Shown here: positions 646 to 13,027 of the stretch, in pieces
Layout of the letters: each line of letters starts with the position of its first letter
Numbering within the stretch: the first letter of the stretch is position 1
Origin: Actinomycetes bacterium
GTDB taxonomy: Bacteria > Actinomycetota > Acidimicrobiia > Acidimicrobiales > Palsa-688
Direction: 5' to 3'
Length of the DNA: 13,027 nt
Assembly: GCA_021796905.1 (NCBI GenBank)
Contig: JAKABK010000018.1
Span: forward strand, 1-13,027
The notes under the pieces: model-generated
What the model saw: only the letters and a program-made list of their open reading frames with translations
What the model was told of the DNA's origin: nothing
Database searches by the model: none
Position numbers and translations under genes: made by a program

Positions 646-652
646 GGAGGTG
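646..652 (+). promoter_or_regulatory. Ribosome binding site that decides the FAD-subunit start
   Basis: GGAGGTG matches the 16S anti-Shine-Dalgarno sequence over seven bases. Its GGAGG core ends 6 bases before the GTG at 657 and only 3 before the in-frame GTG at 654, so 657 is preferred. Confidence 0.55.
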
Positions 653-656
653 GGTG

Positions 657-1502
657 GTGCGGATCGCACGGCCGGTGACAGTGGACGAAGCCGTCGAGGC
701 CCTCTCCGAGGAGCCCGGCGCGCAACTGCTCGCCGGGGGCACCGACTTCTGCGTGGAGGTCAACTTCGGTCACCGCCGCCCGCCGGCGGTCGTCGCCCTC
801 CGGCGCGTCGACGAGCTGACGCACCGGGAGGTCACCGACGAAGTGGTCACCCTCGGGGCGGGGGTCACCTACAGCGACCTCGTCGGCCCGCTCTCCGGGG
901 TGGTCCCGGCCCTGACTGCCGCAGCCCGCAGTGTCGGCTCCCCCCAGATCCGGAACGCCGGGACCATCGGCGGCAACCTCGCGACGGCCAGCCCGGCGGG
1001 CGACACCCTGCCGGTGCTCGCCGCGCTCGGCGCCCGGGTCGGCCTCCGGGGCCCCGGCGGGGAACGGACCGTCGCGTTGGAGGATCTGGTGACCGGGGTG
1101 AAGCGCACCTCGATCCGACCCGACGAGCTGATCGTCGAGGTGGCGGTCCCCCGGGTCCGGGGCTCCCAGCAGTTCGTCAAGGTCGGGACCCGCAACGCCA
1201 TGGTGATCGCCATCGCCTCCGCTGCGGTGGTGCTCGACCGGGACCGCCGGGAGGTGCGCTGCGCCCTGGGCTCGGTGGCGCCGGTACCGCTCCGGGTGCC
1301 CCTGGCGGAGGCCTCGATGGCCGACGCGATCGACTGGGAGCGGATGGCCGCGCCGGCCGCAGCCCTCACCAGCTTCGGCGAGATCGCAGCCGAGGCGGCC
1401 GCACCGATCAGCGACCACCGCTCGACTGCCGCCTACCGGCGCCGGGCGGTGGCGGTGATCTGCGAGCGGGCGATGAGGAGGTGCCTGCGGGATGCCGGTT
1501 GA
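657..1502 (+). CDS. Xanthine dehydrogenase-type FAD-binding subunit (CoxM/XdhB-like)
   Basis: This is the FAD-binding medium subunit of a molybdenum hydroxylase. It passes electrons from the iron-sulfur subunit to NAD or another acceptor. The protein has 281 residues, typical of free-standing CoxM-like subunits. Both flavin motifs are visible: LLAGGTDF at 24-31, and NAGTIGGNLATASPAGDT at 100-117, which binds the FAD diphosphate. The C-terminal part (about 160-281) fits the CO dehydrogenase flavoprotein C-terminal domain. A GTG start at 657 is chosen from the ribosome binding site; GTG 654 would add one residue. The open frame continues upstream, but that part lies before the promoter and has no family similarity. 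The gene is first in a tight three-gene operon and overlaps the next gene by 11 bases. Xanthine is inferred as substrate from the neighbouring adenosine deaminase and the large subunit, not from this protein. Confidence 0.92.
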   Translation: MRIARPVTVDEAVEALSEEPGAQLLAGGTDFCVEVNFGHRRPPAVVALRRVDELTHREVTDEVVTLGAGVTYSDLVGPLSGVVPALTAAARSVGSPQIRNAGTIGGNLATASPAGDTLPVLAALGARVGLRGPGGERTVALEDLVTGVKRTSIRPDELIVEVAVPRVRGSQQFVKVGTRNAMVIAIASAAVVLDRDRREVRCALGSVAPVPLRVPLAEASMADAIDWERMAAPAAALTSFGEIAAEAAAPISDHRSTAAYRRRAVAVICERAMRRCLRDAG

Positions 1503-2079
1503 GCAACGCCCGCCCGACGTGCCGGCAGGTTGGGACCTCCCCCCGGCGCCGGGTGGTCGGGAGACACCCGGAGGTGACCGGCCGTGGCCGACCGCCGAGG
1601 CCTACGAGCTGGTCGTCAACGGCGAGACCCGGGAGGTGACCGGCGGATGGGTGGGCGAGAGCCTCCTGTTCGTGCTGCGGGAACGTCTCGGGCTGCCCGG
1701 CGCCAAGAACGCCTGCGAGCAGGGCGAGTGCGGGTCGTGCTCGGTCCTGCTCGACGGGGTGGTGGTCTGCGCGTGCTGCGTGCTCGGCGCCGACGCCGCC
1801 GGGGCCGAGGTCACGACCGTCGAGGGGTTGACCTCTTCGGGGGCGGCGGCCGATGTCCAAGCGGCGCTGGTGGGCGCCGGCGGGGTGCAGTGCGGGTTCT
1901 GCACCCCCGGGTTCGTGGTCGCGATCACCGACCTGCTCGCGCGATCACCCGACGCCACCGAGCTCGAGGTGCGCGAGGCGCTGTCGGGGAACTTGTGCCG
2001 CTGCACCGGCTACGGGCGGATCCTCGAAGCGGTCTCTGAGGTCCAGGCGGAGCGGAGGATGGCCGGTGGCCCGGGATAA
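1492..2079 (+). CDS. Xanthine dehydrogenase-type [2Fe-2S] subunit (CoxS/XdhC-like)
   Basis: This is the small electron-transfer subunit of the molybdenum hydroxylase, 195 residues long. Residues 38-115 form the plant-ferredoxin-type domain, with cluster ligands C75, C80, C83 and C95. Residues 118-190 form the helical [2Fe-2S]-binding domain, with C134, C137, C169 and C171 in the patterns QCGFCTPG and LCRCTGY. All eight ligands are present, so both clusters should assemble. About 37 Pro/Gly-rich residues precede the ferredoxin fold, which is longer than usual for a roughly 160-residue family. An internal start is possible but none has a better ribosome binding site. The ATG at 1492 lies 10 bases after a GAGGAGGTG sequence inside the upstream gene. 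Overlaps on both sides (11 and 14 bases) suggest translational coupling and equal subunit supply. Confidence 0.94.
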   Translation: MPVEQRPPDVPAGWDLPPAPGGRETPGGDRPWPTAEAYELVVNGETREVTGGWVGESLLFVLRERLGLPGAKNACEQGECGSCSVLLDGVVVCACCVLGADAAGAEVTTVEGLTSSGAAADVQAALVGAGGVQCGFCTPGFVVAITDLLARSPDATELEVREALSGNLCRCTGYGRILEAVSEVQAERRMAGGPG

Positions 2080-4405
2080 CGTCGTCGCCGGAGCCACGTC
2101 TGCGCCCCCCGGCGAGGCGACCGGCACCGCGACCGCGACGGTGGCACCCCGGGTGGGTGACGACGCGCCCCGTCCCGACGGGATCCCCAAGGCGACCGGT
2201 CGGTTCGCGTTCTCCTCGGACCTGTGGATCGACGGGATGCTGTGGGGACGCACCCTGCGCAGCCCGCACCCCGCGGCCCGGGTCCGCTCGATCGACGTGG
2301 CCCCGGCGCTCGCCCTGCCCGGCGTGTGGGCGGTGCTCACCGCCGCCGACGTGCCCGGTCGCCCGACCTTCGGGCTGGAGGTCCCCGACCAGCCGGTGCT
2401 CGCCGGCGACGTGGTCCGCTACCACGGCGAACCGGTCGCCGCGGTGGCCGCCGACCACCCCGAGACCGCCCGGGCGGCCGCGGAGGCGGTGATCGTCGAC
2501 TACGAGCCGCTCACTCCGCTGGTCGACCCGGCCGCAGCCCTCGGCTCACCGCCGATCCACCCCGACGGCAACCTGTTCCGGCACCTGCCGATCCGCCACG
2601 GCGACCCCGGGGCGACCGGGACCGTAGTGGTCGAGGGGGAATACGAGGTGGGCATGCAGGACCAGGCGTTCCTCGGGCCCGAGTCTGGGCTGGCAGTGCC
2701 CGCCGACGACGGTGGTGTCGACCTCTATGTCGCGACCCAGTGGCTGCACGTCGACCGGGACCAGGTCGCCGCCAGCCTCGGGCTGCCGGTCGAGCGGGTC
2801 CGTCTGCACCTCGCCGGGGTCGGCGGGGCGTTCGGCGGCCGGGAGGACGTCAGCCTGCAGATCCACCTGTGCCTGCTGGCGTTGCGAACCGGCCGGCCGG
2901 TGAAGATGGTCTACTCGCGTGACGAGTCGTTCTTCGGCCACGTCCACCGCCACCCGGCCCGAATGTGGTACCGCCACCACGCCACCGCAGAGGGCGACCT
3001 GGTGAAGATCGAGGCCCGGATCCTCCTCGACGGCGGTGCCTACCTGTCCTCGAGCAACGCGGTGATCTCCAACGCCGCGTGCTTCGCTCCGGGGCCGTAC
3101 CGGGTGCCGAACGCAGTGATCGACGGGTACGTGGTCCGCACCAACAACCCGCCGTGCGGGGCGATGCGCGGCTTCGGCTCGGTGCAGGTCTGCTACGGCC
3201 ACGAGGCCCAGATGGACAAGCTGGCTGCCGCCATCGGCGTCGACCCGGTGGCGCTGCGGGCACGCAACGCCCTCCACCGCGGCGACCGGCTGGTGACCGG
3301 TCAGGTCCTGACCGGTGCGGTCCCGGTACGGGAGGTGATCCGTGCCGCCGCCGCCCGGCCCCTACCGGCGCCCGCCGACCCGGACGGTCCGGTGATCGCC
3401 CGACCGGGGGGTGCGGGGCTCACCGCCGACCCCGAAGACATCACCAGGGGGGTCGGCTTCGCGCTGAGCATCAAGAACGTCGCCTACTCGGAGGGCTACG
3501 ACGACTACGCCACCGCCAGGCTGCGTCTGGAGGCCGGGGCGGGAGGCGAGCCGGTCGCCACTGTCGTCGTCGCCACCGCCGAGGTCGGGCAGGGGTTCGT
3601 GACCCTTGCCGGCCAGATCGTCGGCGAGGAGCTGGGCGTGGAGCGGGTGGTCCTAGCCCCGGCCGGCACCGCCGAGGTCGGCTCCGCCGGTTCGAGCAGC
3701 GCCTCCCGCCAGACCTGGGTGAGCGGCGGCGCCCTGCAGCTGGCCTGCGCCGCGGTTCGAGCGGAGCTGGTGTCCCGGGCTGCGAGCAAGTGGGCGTGCC
3801 CGACCGACGCGGTGGAGGTCTCCCCCGGGGCTCTGCGGCGCAGCGACACCCTCGAACGCGCCGGGTGGGCCGAGCTGCTCCACCCGCCGATCGAGGTGGA
3901 GGAGGTCTACCATCACCGCCCGACCCGGGCGCTCGACGCGGACGGTCAGGGCGACGCCCACCTGGCGATGATGTTCGCCGCGCACCGGGCGGTCGTGGAC
4001 GTCGACCGGGGTCTCGGTCTGGTCCGGGTGGTGCAGGTAGCCACCGGCCAGGACGTCGGGCGGGCCCTGAACCCCTTGCAGGTGACCGGCCAGATCGAGG
4101 GCGGGATCGCCCAGGGCGTCGGGCTGGCGGTGATGGAGGAGATCGTCCTCGACACGGGACGGGTCCGCAACCCTTCCTTCACCGACTACCTGATCCCGAC
4201 GACCCTCGACATGCCGGTCGTGGACGCCGTGCTGGTCCAGGAGCCCGAGCCCGGGGCTCCCTACGGGGCGAAGGGGGTCGGGGAGCCACCGGCGATATCC
4301 TCGGGTCCAGCGGTGCTCGCCGCGATCCGCGACGCCACCGGTCTGCCCCTGTCCCGGGTCCCGGTCCGCCCCGCCGACATCGCCCTCGCCGACCCTTCCG
4401 GCTGA
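2066..4405 (+). CDS. Xanthine dehydrogenase-type molybdenum cofactor-binding subunit
   Basis: This is the catalytic subunit, 779 residues, which hydroxylates the purine ring at the molybdopterin-cytosine-dinucleotide or molybdopterin site. Visible family elements are the N-terminal a/b hammerhead domain (about 35-150), QDQAFLGPESGLA (198-210), GVGGAFGGRED (251-261), GAMRGFG (365-371), TAEVGQGF (504-511), GSAGSSSASRQTW (539-551), and GVGEPP (737-742) with the catalytic base Glu740. The loop at 365-371 lacks the AYxCSFR motif of form I CO dehydrogenase. With the divergent adenosine deaminase, this favours xanthine or hypoxanthine dehydrogenase. Substrates such as nicotinate or aldehydes cannot be excluded. 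The start is GTG at 2066, 7 bases after GGAGG (2054-2058). The frame extends further upstream, but only as a shadow of the iron-sulfur gene. It is the last gene of the operon. No XdhC-type insertion chaperone follows. Confidence 0.93.
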   Translation: MARDNVVAGATSAPPGEATGTATATVAPRVGDDAPRPDGIPKATGRFAFSSDLWIDGMLWGRTLRSPHPAARVRSIDVAPALALPGVWAVLTAADVPGRPTFGLEVPDQPVLAGDVVRYHGEPVAAVAADHPETARAAAEAVIVDYEPLTPLVDPAAALGSPPIHPDGNLFRHLPIRHGDPGATGTVVVEGEYEVGMQDQAFLGPESGLAVPADDGGVDLYVATQWLHVDRDQVAASLGLPVERVRLHLAGVGGAFGGREDVSLQIHLCLLALRTGRPVKMVYSRDESFFGHVHRHPARMWYRHHATAEGDLVKIEARILLDGGAYLSSSNAVISNAACFAPGPYRVPNAVIDGYVVRTNNPPCGAMRGFGSVQVCYGHEAQMDKLAAAIGVDPVALRARNALHRGDRLVTGQVLTGAVPVREVIRAAAARPLPAPADPDGPVIARPGGAGLTADPEDITRGVGFALSIKNVAYSEGYDDYATARLRLEAGAGGEPVATVVVATAEVGQGFVTLAGQIVGEELGVERVVLAPAGTAEVGSAGSSSASRQTWVSGGALQLACAAVRAELVSRAASKWACPTDAVEVSPGALRRSDTLERAGWAELLHPPIEVEEVYHHRPTRALDADGQGDAHLAMMFAAHRAVVDVDRGLGLVRVVQVATGQDVGRALNPLQVTGQIEGGIAQGVGLAVMEEIVLDTGRVRNPSFTDYLIPTTLDMPVVDAVLVQEPEPGAPYGAKGVGEPPAISSGPAVLAAIRDATGLPLSRVPVRPADIALADPSG

Positions 4406-7085: not shown

Positions 7086-7171
7086 GGAGGGATGCGAGAG
7101 CGGCCGAATCGGACGGTCTCGAAAACCGTTGTGCCCCATGGGCACCGTGGGTTCAAATCCCACTCCCTCCG
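7086..7171 (+). tRNA. tRNA-Ser, anticodon CGA
   Basis: The complete cloverleaf can be drawn by hand. Acceptor stem GGAGGGA (7086-7092) pairs with TCCCTCC (7164-7170), with discriminator G7171. The anticodon stem ACGGT/ACCGT encloses loop CTCGAAA, giving anticodon CGA, which reads UCG codons. The long variable arm, GTGCCC-CAT-GGGCAC, is the serine identity feature. The T arm is GTGGG-TTCAAAT-CCCAC. The 3' CCA is not encoded (CTG follows), so nucleotidyltransferase must add it. Confidence 0.97.
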
Positions 7172-7176
7172 CTGCG

Positions 7177-10356: not shown

Positions 10357-11316
10357 CTACTCCTCGAGGGGCAGCTCGTCGACCTCGCCGCTCTCCTCGG
10401 CGGCGAGGACGTCGGGCAGTGCCGACAGCGCCTCCGAGGGTGTGCCTTCCGCCGGCCCGTACACGTCGGCGGCGGCGGTCTCGGCGATGGCCAGGCCGAC
10501 CAGGCGATCGACCAGCCCGGCGGCGTCGAGCGTCGAGGACACCAGCGGGAGCCCGCAGCGGGGTGGGGGCTCGGTGGCGGGCAGGAAGCGGACGACACCG
10601 CGCGCGATGCCGCCACCACCCCAGGAGTAGAGGCCCACCGCCGCGAAGTCGCACCGGTTCAGGTGTGAGGGATCCCCTGCCCGGCGCCCCGAGCGGCGCC
10701 GTAGTTCGAGGACGGCGTGCGCGAACGACGACTGGCCGGCCGACTTGTCCGAGCACGCCTCGACCGGCACGAAGAACACCCCGGCCATCGTCGCCCGGGG
10801 CAGGTGGCGGTGGACGGTGGTCAGCTCGTCGGCGAGCTCGTAGAGCCGGCCGGTGAGGTTCTTGTCGTAGTTGCCGCTCTCGTCGTCACGGAAGTTGAGG
10901 CCCTTGAGCGAGACACCGAGCTGGAGGCCGGACAGCTCTCCGGCGACCACGACGTCGATGCGTTTGCCGCTGCGGTAGCCCAGCGGCCAGAACGTCTCCT
11001 GGCCGGTGCCGTCAGCCGCCGGCGCCACCCGGAAGCGCCGGCTGATCGCGCGGTGACGGCGCAGCTCGTCGGCGAGCATGGTCGCGGTGGCCCCCGCGAA
11101 GAGCTCCGACCACCGCTTCCGGCGGTCACGCAGCGGCGCCCGTCTCGCGCTGCGCTCGCTCCGCGACAGCCCGGCGTCCAGGATCTCGGCCGCGTCGGCC
11201 TCGATCGCCGCTCGGGGCCGCTCGGCGTCGGCCAGGTCGAGCGCGGTCAGCATGCCCGGCGAAGCTACGAGGTCGGACCAGCGCTGGGCCTCGGCGTCAC
11301 CCGCCACGCGGCCCAC
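10357..11316 (-). CDS. Putative type II restriction endonuclease, degenerate PD-(D/E)xK core
   Basis: I do not recognise a named family. The 319-residue protein lies directly downstream of a cytosine-5 methyltransferase and a Vsr gene on the same strand, the usual place of the cognate restriction enzyme. Residues 1-100 are mostly helical and Arg/Ala-rich. The core RSGKRIDVVVAGELSGLQLG, then VSLKGLNF (115-142), fits a PD-(D/E)xK hairpin: Asp121 at the first strand and S136-L-K138 in the second, with Ser replacing the usual Glu or Asp. NYDKNLTGRLYELADE (149-164) is a strikingly polar helix that may complete the active site. The next strand, AGVFFVPV, is hydrophobic. The tail is acidic (EESGEVDELPLEE). 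Start GTG 11316 lies 48 bases after the Vsr stop; GTG 11307 is an alternative. Nuclease activity is inferred; the coding call is firm. Confidence 0.72.
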   Translation of the reverse strand: MGRVAGDAEAQRWSDLVASPGMLTALDLADAERPRAAIEADAAEILDAGLSRSERSARRAPLRDRRKRWSELFAGATATMLADELRRHRAISRRFRVAPAADGTGQETFWPLGYRSGKRIDVVVAGELSGLQLGVSLKGLNFRDDESGNYDKNLTGRLYELADELTTVHRHLPRATMAGVFFVPVEACSDKSAGQSSFAHAVLELRRRSGRRAGDPSHLNRCDFAAVGLYSWGGGGIARGVVRFLPATEPPPRCGLPLVSSTLDAAGLVDRLVGLAIAETAAADVYGPAEGTPSEALSALPDVLAAEESGEVDELPLEE

Positions 11317-11364
11317 ACTTCCCGGCTCCGCCTGCCGCCCTGATCGCCGCCACGGGGCCGCAAC

Positions 11365-11883
11365 CTAGCGGCGTCGCGGCTCCCGGGGCTGCGACGGGGA
11401 TCCCCCGCGTCCGCCGCCGGCTCGTGCCGCCGCCTCCACCCGGGAGGCCGCTGCGGTCGGCTCCTCGTGCTCCCAGACCCGCACGACGGTCCACCCGGCG
11501 GCAGACAGGTTCTCGTCGGTGGCACGGTCCCGGGCGACGTTGGCGTCGAGCTTGGCGGTCCACCACTCCTGGTTGGTCTTGGGGGTGGTGGCGTGGAGGG
11601 GGCAGCGGTGCCAGAAGCAGCCGTCGACGTAGACCGCCACCTTGGCCCGGGTGAACACCACGTCGGCGCGTCGACGTCCCCGGATCGGTGCCACGTCGAC
11701 CCGGTAGCGCAGACCCCGACGCCACAGCTCCCGTCGCAGCGCCAGTTCCGGGGCGGTGTCGCGCCGGGCCTGGCGCTGCATCCGCCGGCGGACGGTCTCC
11801 GAGGAGCCGGGCGGCCGCCCCTGGCGACGATCAGGCGACGGAGGACGCCTCCCCGGCGAGCACCTCGACGTGCTCGGCGACAT
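11365..11883 (-). CDS. vsr: Very short patch repair (Vsr) mismatch endonuclease
   Basis: This enzyme nicks DNA 5' of the T in T:G mismatches left by 5-methylcytosine deamination, protecting sites methylated by the neighbouring methyltransferase. The conserved core is clear: RRDTAPELALRRELW (40-54), the metal-binding Asp74 in ADVVF, VDGCFWHRC (86-94) with Cys89, Phe90, Trp91 and His92, Asp119 in ARDR, and VWEHE (136-140). The residue equal to E. coli His64 is Asp87, and the Cys117 position is His139; both are, from memory, common variants. The start is uncertain. ATG 11781 would begin at the Met that aligns with the DNA-intercalating Met14 of E. coli Vsr and would remove the N-terminal helix. 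The next in-frame start, ATG 11883 (172 residues), overlaps the methyltransferase by 53 bases and is given here. Neither has a good ribosome binding site. Confidence 0.85.
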   Translation of the reverse strand: MSPSTSRCSPGRRPPSPDRRQGRPPGSSETVRRRMQRQARRDTAPELALRRELWRRGLRYRVDVAPIRGRRRADVVFTRAKVAVYVDGCFWHRCPLHATTPKTNQEWWTAKLDANVARDRATDENLSAAGWTVVRVWEHEEPTAAASRVEAAARAGGGRGGSPSQPREPRRR

Positions 11884-13000
11884 CCGCGAGGAACCCCGGC
11901 ACGAACCGCAGCGAGGAGCGCCCCGTCCGGGACAGGAAGCCGGCCGCCCCGCGCACCGACAACGGGGTGGCCGACGGGAGGTCGACCACGTCGGAGAGGT
12001 GCTCGTAGGAGAGACGGATGGGCCACAACGACGCCTCGACCGCCCACGCCTTCCCGGCCGCACCGTAGGCCGCCGTCGGCCAGCGCTCACCGGCGACCAG
12101 CGGCCGGCCGTCGGCGCTCGGGCTGCCGGGGTCGACGAGGCGACGTCCGAGCCATCTCGACACCCCTACGGTCACGGCGTTGCCGACCAGCTTCCAGCGC
12201 ACCCCTTCCCGGCGCTGCGAAGCCGGCTCGGTCCAGCCCGCCGGGAAACCCTGCAGCCGCTCGGCCTCCCGGATCGACGGGACCACGATCCTGCCTCCCG
12301 GCGGACCGGCCGGCCACCAGATCGCCGGCGGCGACGGGATCCCCAGGCTCGACCCGCCCTTCAACGTCGGCACGCCGTCGGGCGCCCACCCGAGGCCCCG
12401 CAACCCCTCGGTCCAGTAGAAGCCGTACGCGTCGAGCCGGTACGACGACGGCTCGGGCTCCCCGGCCTCGTCGGCGAAGAGCACCGAGCGGGGATCGAGG
12501 TCCCTCGCCGCCACCAGGATGACCCGTTGACGGCGCTGGGGCACCCCGGTCGAACGCGAGTCCACCAAGCGGTAGGCCCAGCGGTAGCCCAACCCCTCGA
12601 ACTCCGACACCAGGTAGCTCATCGCCGCCCCAGCATCCAGGACGAGCATGTTGCGCACGTTCTCGAGCACCAGGACCGGCACCCGTCGCCGCCGCAACAG
12701 CCGGAACACCTCGCTTACCAGCCCCGACTGGGACCCTCGGATCCCCACCGTCCGACCCGCCTGGGACAGATCGGTGCACGGGAACCCCGCTGTCACCACG
12801 TCGACCTTCGGCAACGACCGCAGCTCCCGCACGTCGGTGGCGACCGGCACACCGGGGAACCGGGCCTCGAGCACGCGAGCGGCCGGCTCCCACCACTCGC
12901 AGAGCAGCTCGGCCTCCCCACCCGCCTCCGCCAGCCCCCGCTCCAGACCACCGATACCGGCGAAGAGCCCGGCGACCGAGAAGCGAGCCCCTGCTGTCAC
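11831..13000 (-). CDS. DNA (cytosine-5)-methyltransferase
   Basis: This enzyme transfers a methyl group from S-adenosylmethionine to C5 of cytosine in a specific DNA site and is the modification half of the cassette. The 389-residue protein shows the motifs in order: I, LFAGIGGLERGLAEAG (12-27); IV, GFPCTDLSQAG with catalytic Cys75; VI, ENV (113-115); VIII, QRRQR (155-159); IX, RLQGFP (248-253); and X, GNAVTVGVSRWLGRRL (273-288). The target-recognition region lies between VIII and IX (about 165-245), and its site cannot be read. About 100 residues follow motif X, longer than minimal family members. Start GTG 13000 has a -10 element 7 bases upstream. It is the first gene of a minus-strand cassette with the Vsr and nuclease genes. 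Confidence 0.95.
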   Translation of the reverse strand: MTAGARFSVAGLFAGIGGLERGLAEAGGEAELLCEWWEPAARVLEARFPGVPVATDVRELRSLPKVDVVTAGFPCTDLSQAGRTVGIRGSQSGLVSEVFRLLRRRRVPVLVLENVRNMLVLDAGAAMSYLVSEFEGLGYRWAYRLVDSRSTGVPQRRQRVILVAARDLDPRSVLFADEAGEPEPSSYRLDAYGFYWTEGLRGLGWAPDGVPTLKGGSSLGIPSPPAIWWPAGPPGGRIVVPSIREAERLQGFPAGWTEPASQRREGVRWKLVGNAVTVGVSRWLGRRLVDPGSPSADGRPLVAGERWPTAAYGAAGKAWAVEASLWPIRLSYEHLSDVVDLPSATPLSVRGAAGFLSRTGRSSLRFVPGFLADVAEHVEVLAGEASSVA

Positions 13001-13007
13001 GCCCCCG

Positions 13008-13013
13008 AAACTA
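13008..13013 (-). promoter_or_regulatory. Leaderless -10 element of the methyltransferase gene
   Basis: On the minus strand TAGTTT (TAnnnT) ends 7 bases before the GTG at 13000, with only CGGGGGC between, so transcription probably starts at the start codon. The -35 region would lie beyond the right edge of the window. Confidence 0.5.
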
Positions 13014-13027
13014 CATCCTTGGAGCTC

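Follow-up and report, generated by a model that had tools for sequence, protein, structure and literature searches.

What does the third gene beside a DNA methyltransferase and a Vsr repair gene encode, when it resembles no named restriction enzyme? We analysed a stretch of 13,027 nucleotides (the window) from an Actinomycetes bacterium of the Acidimicrobiales (Palsa-688; assembly GCA_021796905.1, contig JAKABK010000018.1). At the end of the window, 2.7 kb of the minus strand hold three adjacent open reading frames (ORFs): a methyltransferase, a Vsr protein, and a protein of 319 residues. An initial annotation, made from the sequence alone, had read these genes as a restriction-modification cassette, and the ORF list agrees with the positions that it gave:

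11831..13000, minus strand: C5-cytosine DNA methyltransferase, 389 amino acids (aa) from the GTG at 13000; identified from Pfam, NCBIfam, and PADLOC matches, motifs, and an alignment with nine linked homologues.
11365..11883, minus strand: Vsr (very short patch repair) mismatch endonuclease, 172 aa from the ATG at 11883 (alternative ATG at 11781); TIGR00632 and PF03852.
10357..11316, minus strand: predicted cognate Type II restriction endonuclease, 319 aa; identified from the linkage of its relatives to methyltransferases and from conserved residues.

We are confident that the three genes form a Type II restriction-modification-Vsr cassette whose endonuclease belongs to an uncatalogued family, that is, one absent from Pfam, NCBIfam, PADLOC, and the PDB sequences, but for which REBASE may have an entry. 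Judging from its conserved residues and its neighbours, the third gene very probably encodes the cognate endonuclease.

The first two genes are identified by standard tools. The methyltransferase matches Pfam DNA_methylase (155 bits, E = 3.4e-45), the dcm model TIGR00675 (142.2 bits; the cut-off is 100.65), and, over nearly its whole length, the PADLOC model MTase_II PDLC03324 (445 bits, residues 8-381 of 389); these models give no specificity. Its translation contains FAGIGG, GFPCTDLS, LENV, PQRRQRV, and GNAV, which we take to be C5 methyltransferase motifs; the annotation, too, had noted that the key motifs are present. Vsr, likewise correctly named, scores 122.6 bits against TIGR00632 (above the curated cut-off of 97.85) and E = 2.5e-17 against PF03852. 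It includes the segment VDGCFWHRC, whose residues presumably have their usual roles in Vsr, and differs in nothing notable from this family. Only its start codon is uncertain. The gene could begin at 11883, which gives a 53-base overlap with the methyltransferase, or at 11781, which gives a 49-base gap; in either case a 48-base gap separates Vsr from the 319-residue ORF, and these spacings are as first described. Because the TIGR00632 match starts 7 residues ahead of the ATG at 11781, and because Vsr homologues align further upstream (from ORF residue 60 in locus L013 and from residue 61 in L021), the overlapping start at 11883 is most likely.

The 319-residue protein, in contrast, had not been assignable to any named restriction enzyme, and our searches lead to the same result. 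At E = 1 it matches nothing in Pfam, NCBIfam, or PADLOC; its only match among the PDB sequences is a meaningless one to a ribosomal protein (E = 1.5). Searches of the PDB sequences with this protein, with its profile, or with a more distant relative linked to an N6-adenine methyltransferase (see below) gave only matches with E of 0.085 or worse. Nor did any non-nuclease family give a confident match across these four collections. Many restriction enzymes diverge quickly and hence escape profile libraries. In a literature search, we recognised no title as describing the family.

We therefore turn to the relatives of the protein. A protein search found 160 of them, of which the best 120 were listed (41-93% identity), and an alignment of the window protein with 34 of these 120 will be termed A1. 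When the 35 proteins in A1 were compared with Pfam at weak scores, eight unrelated families appeared, with one member each. Scanning genome contigs with the single 319-residue sequence found no relative, but a scan with A1 found 10 loci on 9 contigs, and a sample of 396 genomes from the window's phylum added two genomes with a relative besides the window's own. No relative was found in the viral contigs that were scanned.

In 9 of the 11 other genomes, a homologue of the window's C5 methyltransferase (47-69% identity) lies within about 1.3 kb of the endonuclease relative, and in 7 of the 11 there is also a Vsr nearby. In the two remaining genomes (L010 and L016), the contig ends at most 12 bases from the match; their upstream genes look alike, and the 2.6 and 8.0 kb that can be read on the other side contain no methyltransferase. 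Thus, the neighbourhood is largely kept among homologues, as the initial annotation would require. In one genome (G399), the only C5 methyltransferase match is the one linked to the endonuclease relative. If the C5 methyltransferases of each genome (with fragments merged by hand) are placed uniformly, the chance of nine adjacencies within 3 kb is 1.5e-22, which is a crude estimate that treats genomes as independent, though related cassettes are not.

The link between methyltransferase (M) and endonuclease (R) looks functional because gene order and orientation vary between genomes. Including the window, there are seven arrangements with or without Vsr (V): M-V-R (the window); R-M-V, with one gene between R and M (L007); M-R-V (L012 and L022); M-R with a convergent Vsr (L015 and L021); R-V with a convergent M (L013); M-V divergent from R (L014); and M-R without a Vsr match (L009 and L011). 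In this last arrangement the methyltransferase is present, and the contig ends 2.4 kb (L009) or about 300 bases (L011) past the match.

Two details of these loci stand apart. The gene between the endonuclease relative and the methyltransferase in L007 (8972-9889, minus strand) encodes a 305-aa protein in which, by eye, there is an HNH-like CAFC...HIRN...HH pattern. Also, one metagenome contig (G396 C232; L007 and L008) carries the cassette twice, about 14 kb apart, which could be a real duplication or an assembly artefact.

More distant relatives are linked to a different kind of methyltransferase. Six plasmid records had weaker matches to the endonuclease, and in four of the five that we opened (L003-L006), the relative directly overlaps an N6-adenine methyltransferase gene. 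The N6-linked type also occurs in one genome from the family to which the window belongs (L153). Relatives that usually occur without any methyltransferase would have spoken against the annotation; the opposite holds for the C5 type and, in these four records and one genome, for the N6 type. No Vsr match was found in the approximately 16 kb around the N6-linked plasmid loci. A search with one N6-linked protein found 1,923 relatives (the best 120 were listed; the neighbourhoods examined were those of L002-L006 and L153), and this sister subfamily aligns with A1 at an hhalign probability of 99.6%. A third subfamily was obtained from the protein of L022, which is the most divergent of the C5/Vsr-linked relatives and itself adjoins a methyltransferase and a Vsr. 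This search gave 174 relatives, with the best 120 listed; among those listed, several are from Rhodococcus and its kin and a few are named "Restriction endonuclease" in UniRef. The third subfamily aligns at 99.9% to A1 and at 99.7% to the N6-linked set. The counts of 160, 1,923, and 174 come from three separate searches and the sets may overlap. None of the 360 listed relatives has a Pfam domain.

To locate a candidate active site, we considered an alignment of 360 sequences: the window protein, the listed A1-type relatives except for one of less than 240 aa (119 of 120), 120 N6-linked proteins, and 120 members of the third subfamily. As these are the best-scoring relatives, the alignment understates the diversity of the family. 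E107, D121, S136, D144, K152, and H169 are identical in all 360 sequences, and K138, N153, and E164 are identical in 359; the residue at position 160 depends on the subfamily (E, D, or E). (The placement of E107 depends on the alignment: it was shifted by one column in an earlier alignment of two subfamilies.) The spacing from D121 to S136-x-K138 is that of the PD-(D/E)XK strand pair, with a serine in place of the usual acid. Hence E107, D121, S136-x-K138, D144/E160/E164, and H169 are our candidates for the active site, and the motifs suggest a PD-(D/E)XK-type nuclease with a displaced second acid. We propose that E164, or else E160 or D144, is the substitute. Such migration of an acid has been described for the PD-(D/E)XK superfamily, for example in NgoMIV (PMC1189080, PMC4652773). 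Our view leans slightly towards a clade of its own among the Type II endonucleases, in which the site reads E ... D ... S-x-K ... E with an invariant serine replacing the acid of D/E-x-K, and in which some members have m5C methyltransferases (often together with Vsr) as partners and others have m6A methyltransferases.

Several observations count against a cognate endonuclease of this kind. First, the 319-residue protein has no profile match or PDB sequence match to any nuclease. Second, S-x-K is unusual, as all 360 sequences have S rather than D or E at position 136, and the fold is read from motifs and not from a structure model. Third, some relatives depart from the pattern. In L015 (4522-5171, from a metagenome assembly), the gene for the endonuclease relative is in two parts that lie in different reading frames, and on a Pseudomonas megaplasmid (L002, 7842-8663, plus strand), the relative has no recognised methyltransferase within 8 kb. 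Fourth, the converse link is loose. The window methyltransferase matched 46 plasmid records, and of the eight that we opened (41-53% identity), none is one of the six in which an endonuclease relative had been matched. In Rhizobium phaseoli (L132, 5545-6387, minus strand), a methyltransferase of the same family and a Vsr lie beside a different protein of 280 aa with, by eye, a LEAK motif, which is perhaps another unnamed restriction enzyme; in Mycolicibacterium arabiense (L136, 3884-7167, plus strand), a related C5 methyltransferase gene overlaps an Eco57I-type methylase gene. The methyltransferase family is thus wider than the endonuclease family. (Vsr was annotated or found in three of the eight records, L132, L138, and L133, and four of the eight have no annotation of the stretch.) Finally, no commonly avoided palindrome emerged from 59 tests in genomes that carry the endonuclease.

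This last result comes from observed/expected ratios for palindromes in six carrier genomes and then in ten carriers versus five genomes without a relative. The lowest of the 59 tests was for CGATCG (uncorrected P = 0.0496; 0.75-0.97 in carriers and 0.91-0.96 in controls), which is not significant once corrected, and CTAG and CGCG were low in the control genomes too. As a check of the method, CTCGAG was at 0.19 of expectation in a genome with an XhoI-family gene (G204; L210-L213), which is likely to reflect site avoidance. However, the ratio was 1.05 in another genome with such a gene (G080), so the avoidance test can miss real systems. XorII, which was published with a vsr homologue, is specific for CGATCG according to two papers (PMC4390886, PMC4853030), which would make CGATCG a lead for the recognition site and no more. 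A core recognition site common to the methyltransferase homologues is plausible because a target-recognition stretch, GFYWTEG..GLG(W/G)A followed by (V/I)P(T/P)(L/M)K(G/N)GS..GI(P/A)SPP, is kept in the nine linked homologues and also in three plasmid methyltransferases that do not adjoin an endonuclease relative.

Another explanation for the 319-residue protein is that it is a divergent member of a named family, either XhoI-like or like the CCGG family (NgoMIV, Cfr10I, Bse634I, and BsaWI), in which case it would still be the cognate endonuclease. We consider this rather unlikely. The XhoI family (PF04555) has a loosely similar layout of K-x-x-D ... E-x-K ... and an Asn/Arg-rich part, and weak N6-methyltransferase matches occur near 6 of 12 XhoI-family loci. 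However, XhoI has E-x-K where this protein has S-x-K, and kinship was not apparent: PF04555 matched 23 of 396 genomes, and for ten proteins from the 12 loci, hhalign probabilities were just 0.1-0.4% over the full length and 0.2-2.3% over the core, and the 319-residue protein has no Pfam match. As for the CCGG family, one study gives its criteria as PDX21-53KX12-13E plus R-(D/E)R, with a second acid from downstream (PMC4652773), as we also predict here. However, D121 and K138 are separated by 16 residues instead of 21-53, and R-(D/E)R is not conserved. Also, the acid 12 residues after the lysine (D151) becomes Q or T in the sister subfamilies. The Bse634I profile (PF07832) had no match in any genome searched, controls included.

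A less probable alternative, which we regard as doubtful indeed, is that the 319-residue protein is an accessory of the methyltransferase-Vsr pair, such as a DNA-binding or regulatory factor, and that the methyltransferase is effectively solitary. This would fit the lack of a match to a nuclease family and the frequent occurrence of the methyltransferase family without this protein. Also, a solitary C5 methyltransferase of Caulobacter is reported to be functionally tied to a Vsr-like protein (PMC12907096). However, it is not expected that a helper in m5C repair would belong to a family that also accompanies N6-adenine methyltransferases away from Vsr, and a nuclease-like pattern of acids and lysine is kept in 359-360 of the 360 sequences. 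Furthermore, the neighbour on the readable side is an aldehyde dehydrogenase and not a rival cutter (on this side the scan covered only that neighbour, and on the other the contig has already ended). Lastly, it is very improbable that the gene is a degenerate, inactive restriction enzyme kept next to a methyltransferase and a Vsr that are still of use. In favour of this, expression cannot be judged from the draft genome (75% complete), and the L015 copy is split; against it, the window ORF has its full length and retains the invariant residues, and its four closest relatives (83-93% identity) have 316-319 aa.

Returning to the cognate endonuclease, which the recurrent linkage to methyltransferases favours, we propose that the cassette would work as follows. 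The methyltransferase would methylate a cytosine at C5 within a short site, probably a palindrome, and thereby mark the host DNA as self. The 319-residue protein would cut the same site wherever the methyl group is missing, for example in phage or plasmid DNA that enters the cell, with a metal-dependent active site of the PD-(D/E)XK type. D121 and K138 would keep their usual roles, S136 would stand at the place of the second acid, and E164 (or E160 or D144) would replace that acid. Vsr, which would share the specificity of the other two proteins, would nick beside the T:G mismatches that arise from deamination of 5-methylcytosine, so that the methylated sites are protected from mutation.

The combination of methyltransferase, Vsr, and endonuclease is already known; it is the endonuclease family that is absent from the libraries that we searched. 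XorII of Xanthomonas oryzae, which Choi and Leach reportedly published in 1994 (to go by the title) as a Type II system with a Vsr gene, likewise comprises a C5 methyltransferase, a Vsr homologue, and an endonuclease. The difference is that the endonuclease here is without a named family.

The close subtype is in 3 of 396 genomes of the window's phylum (its own included) and in 1 of 398 genomes of Marichromatium's phylum (the seed genome itself). When the window genome was searched together with 60 relatives, it alone had the subtype, and one of the others had the N6-linked type; the subtype is absent from all three congeners searched (80-86% complete). Because the subtype is rare, scattered, and absent from congeners, its distribution fits horizontal movement.

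On either side of the cassette are two further features:

13001..13027, minus strand: the 27 bases upstream of the methyltransferase GTG to the contig end.
8702-10309, plus strand: aldehyde dehydrogenase, convergent with the 319-residue gene; its best NCBIfam resemblance is to succinate-semialdehyde dehydrogenase, under that model's cut-off.

The contig apparently ends at 13027, since locus L017, retrieved together with its flanks, stops at this position (2028 bases). With just 27 bases ahead of the GTG at 13000, and with the methyltransferase frame open as far as the contig end, the true start of the methyltransferase may lie beyond the contig, as may any promoter. Elsewhere in the window, three consecutive frames (650-4405, plus strand) resemble, by eye, the FAD, [2Fe-2S], and molybdopterin subunits of a xanthine-dehydrogenase-type enzyme, and ARAGORN predicts a tRNA-Ser (cga) at 7086-7172 (plus strand).

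If our interpretation of the 319-residue protein is correct, then its unlabelled relatives could be named as restriction enzymes, with candidate residues for catalysis, and might supply new cutting specificities. The clade would also be a natural series that shows how one nuclease scaffold follows changes in methylation chemistry.

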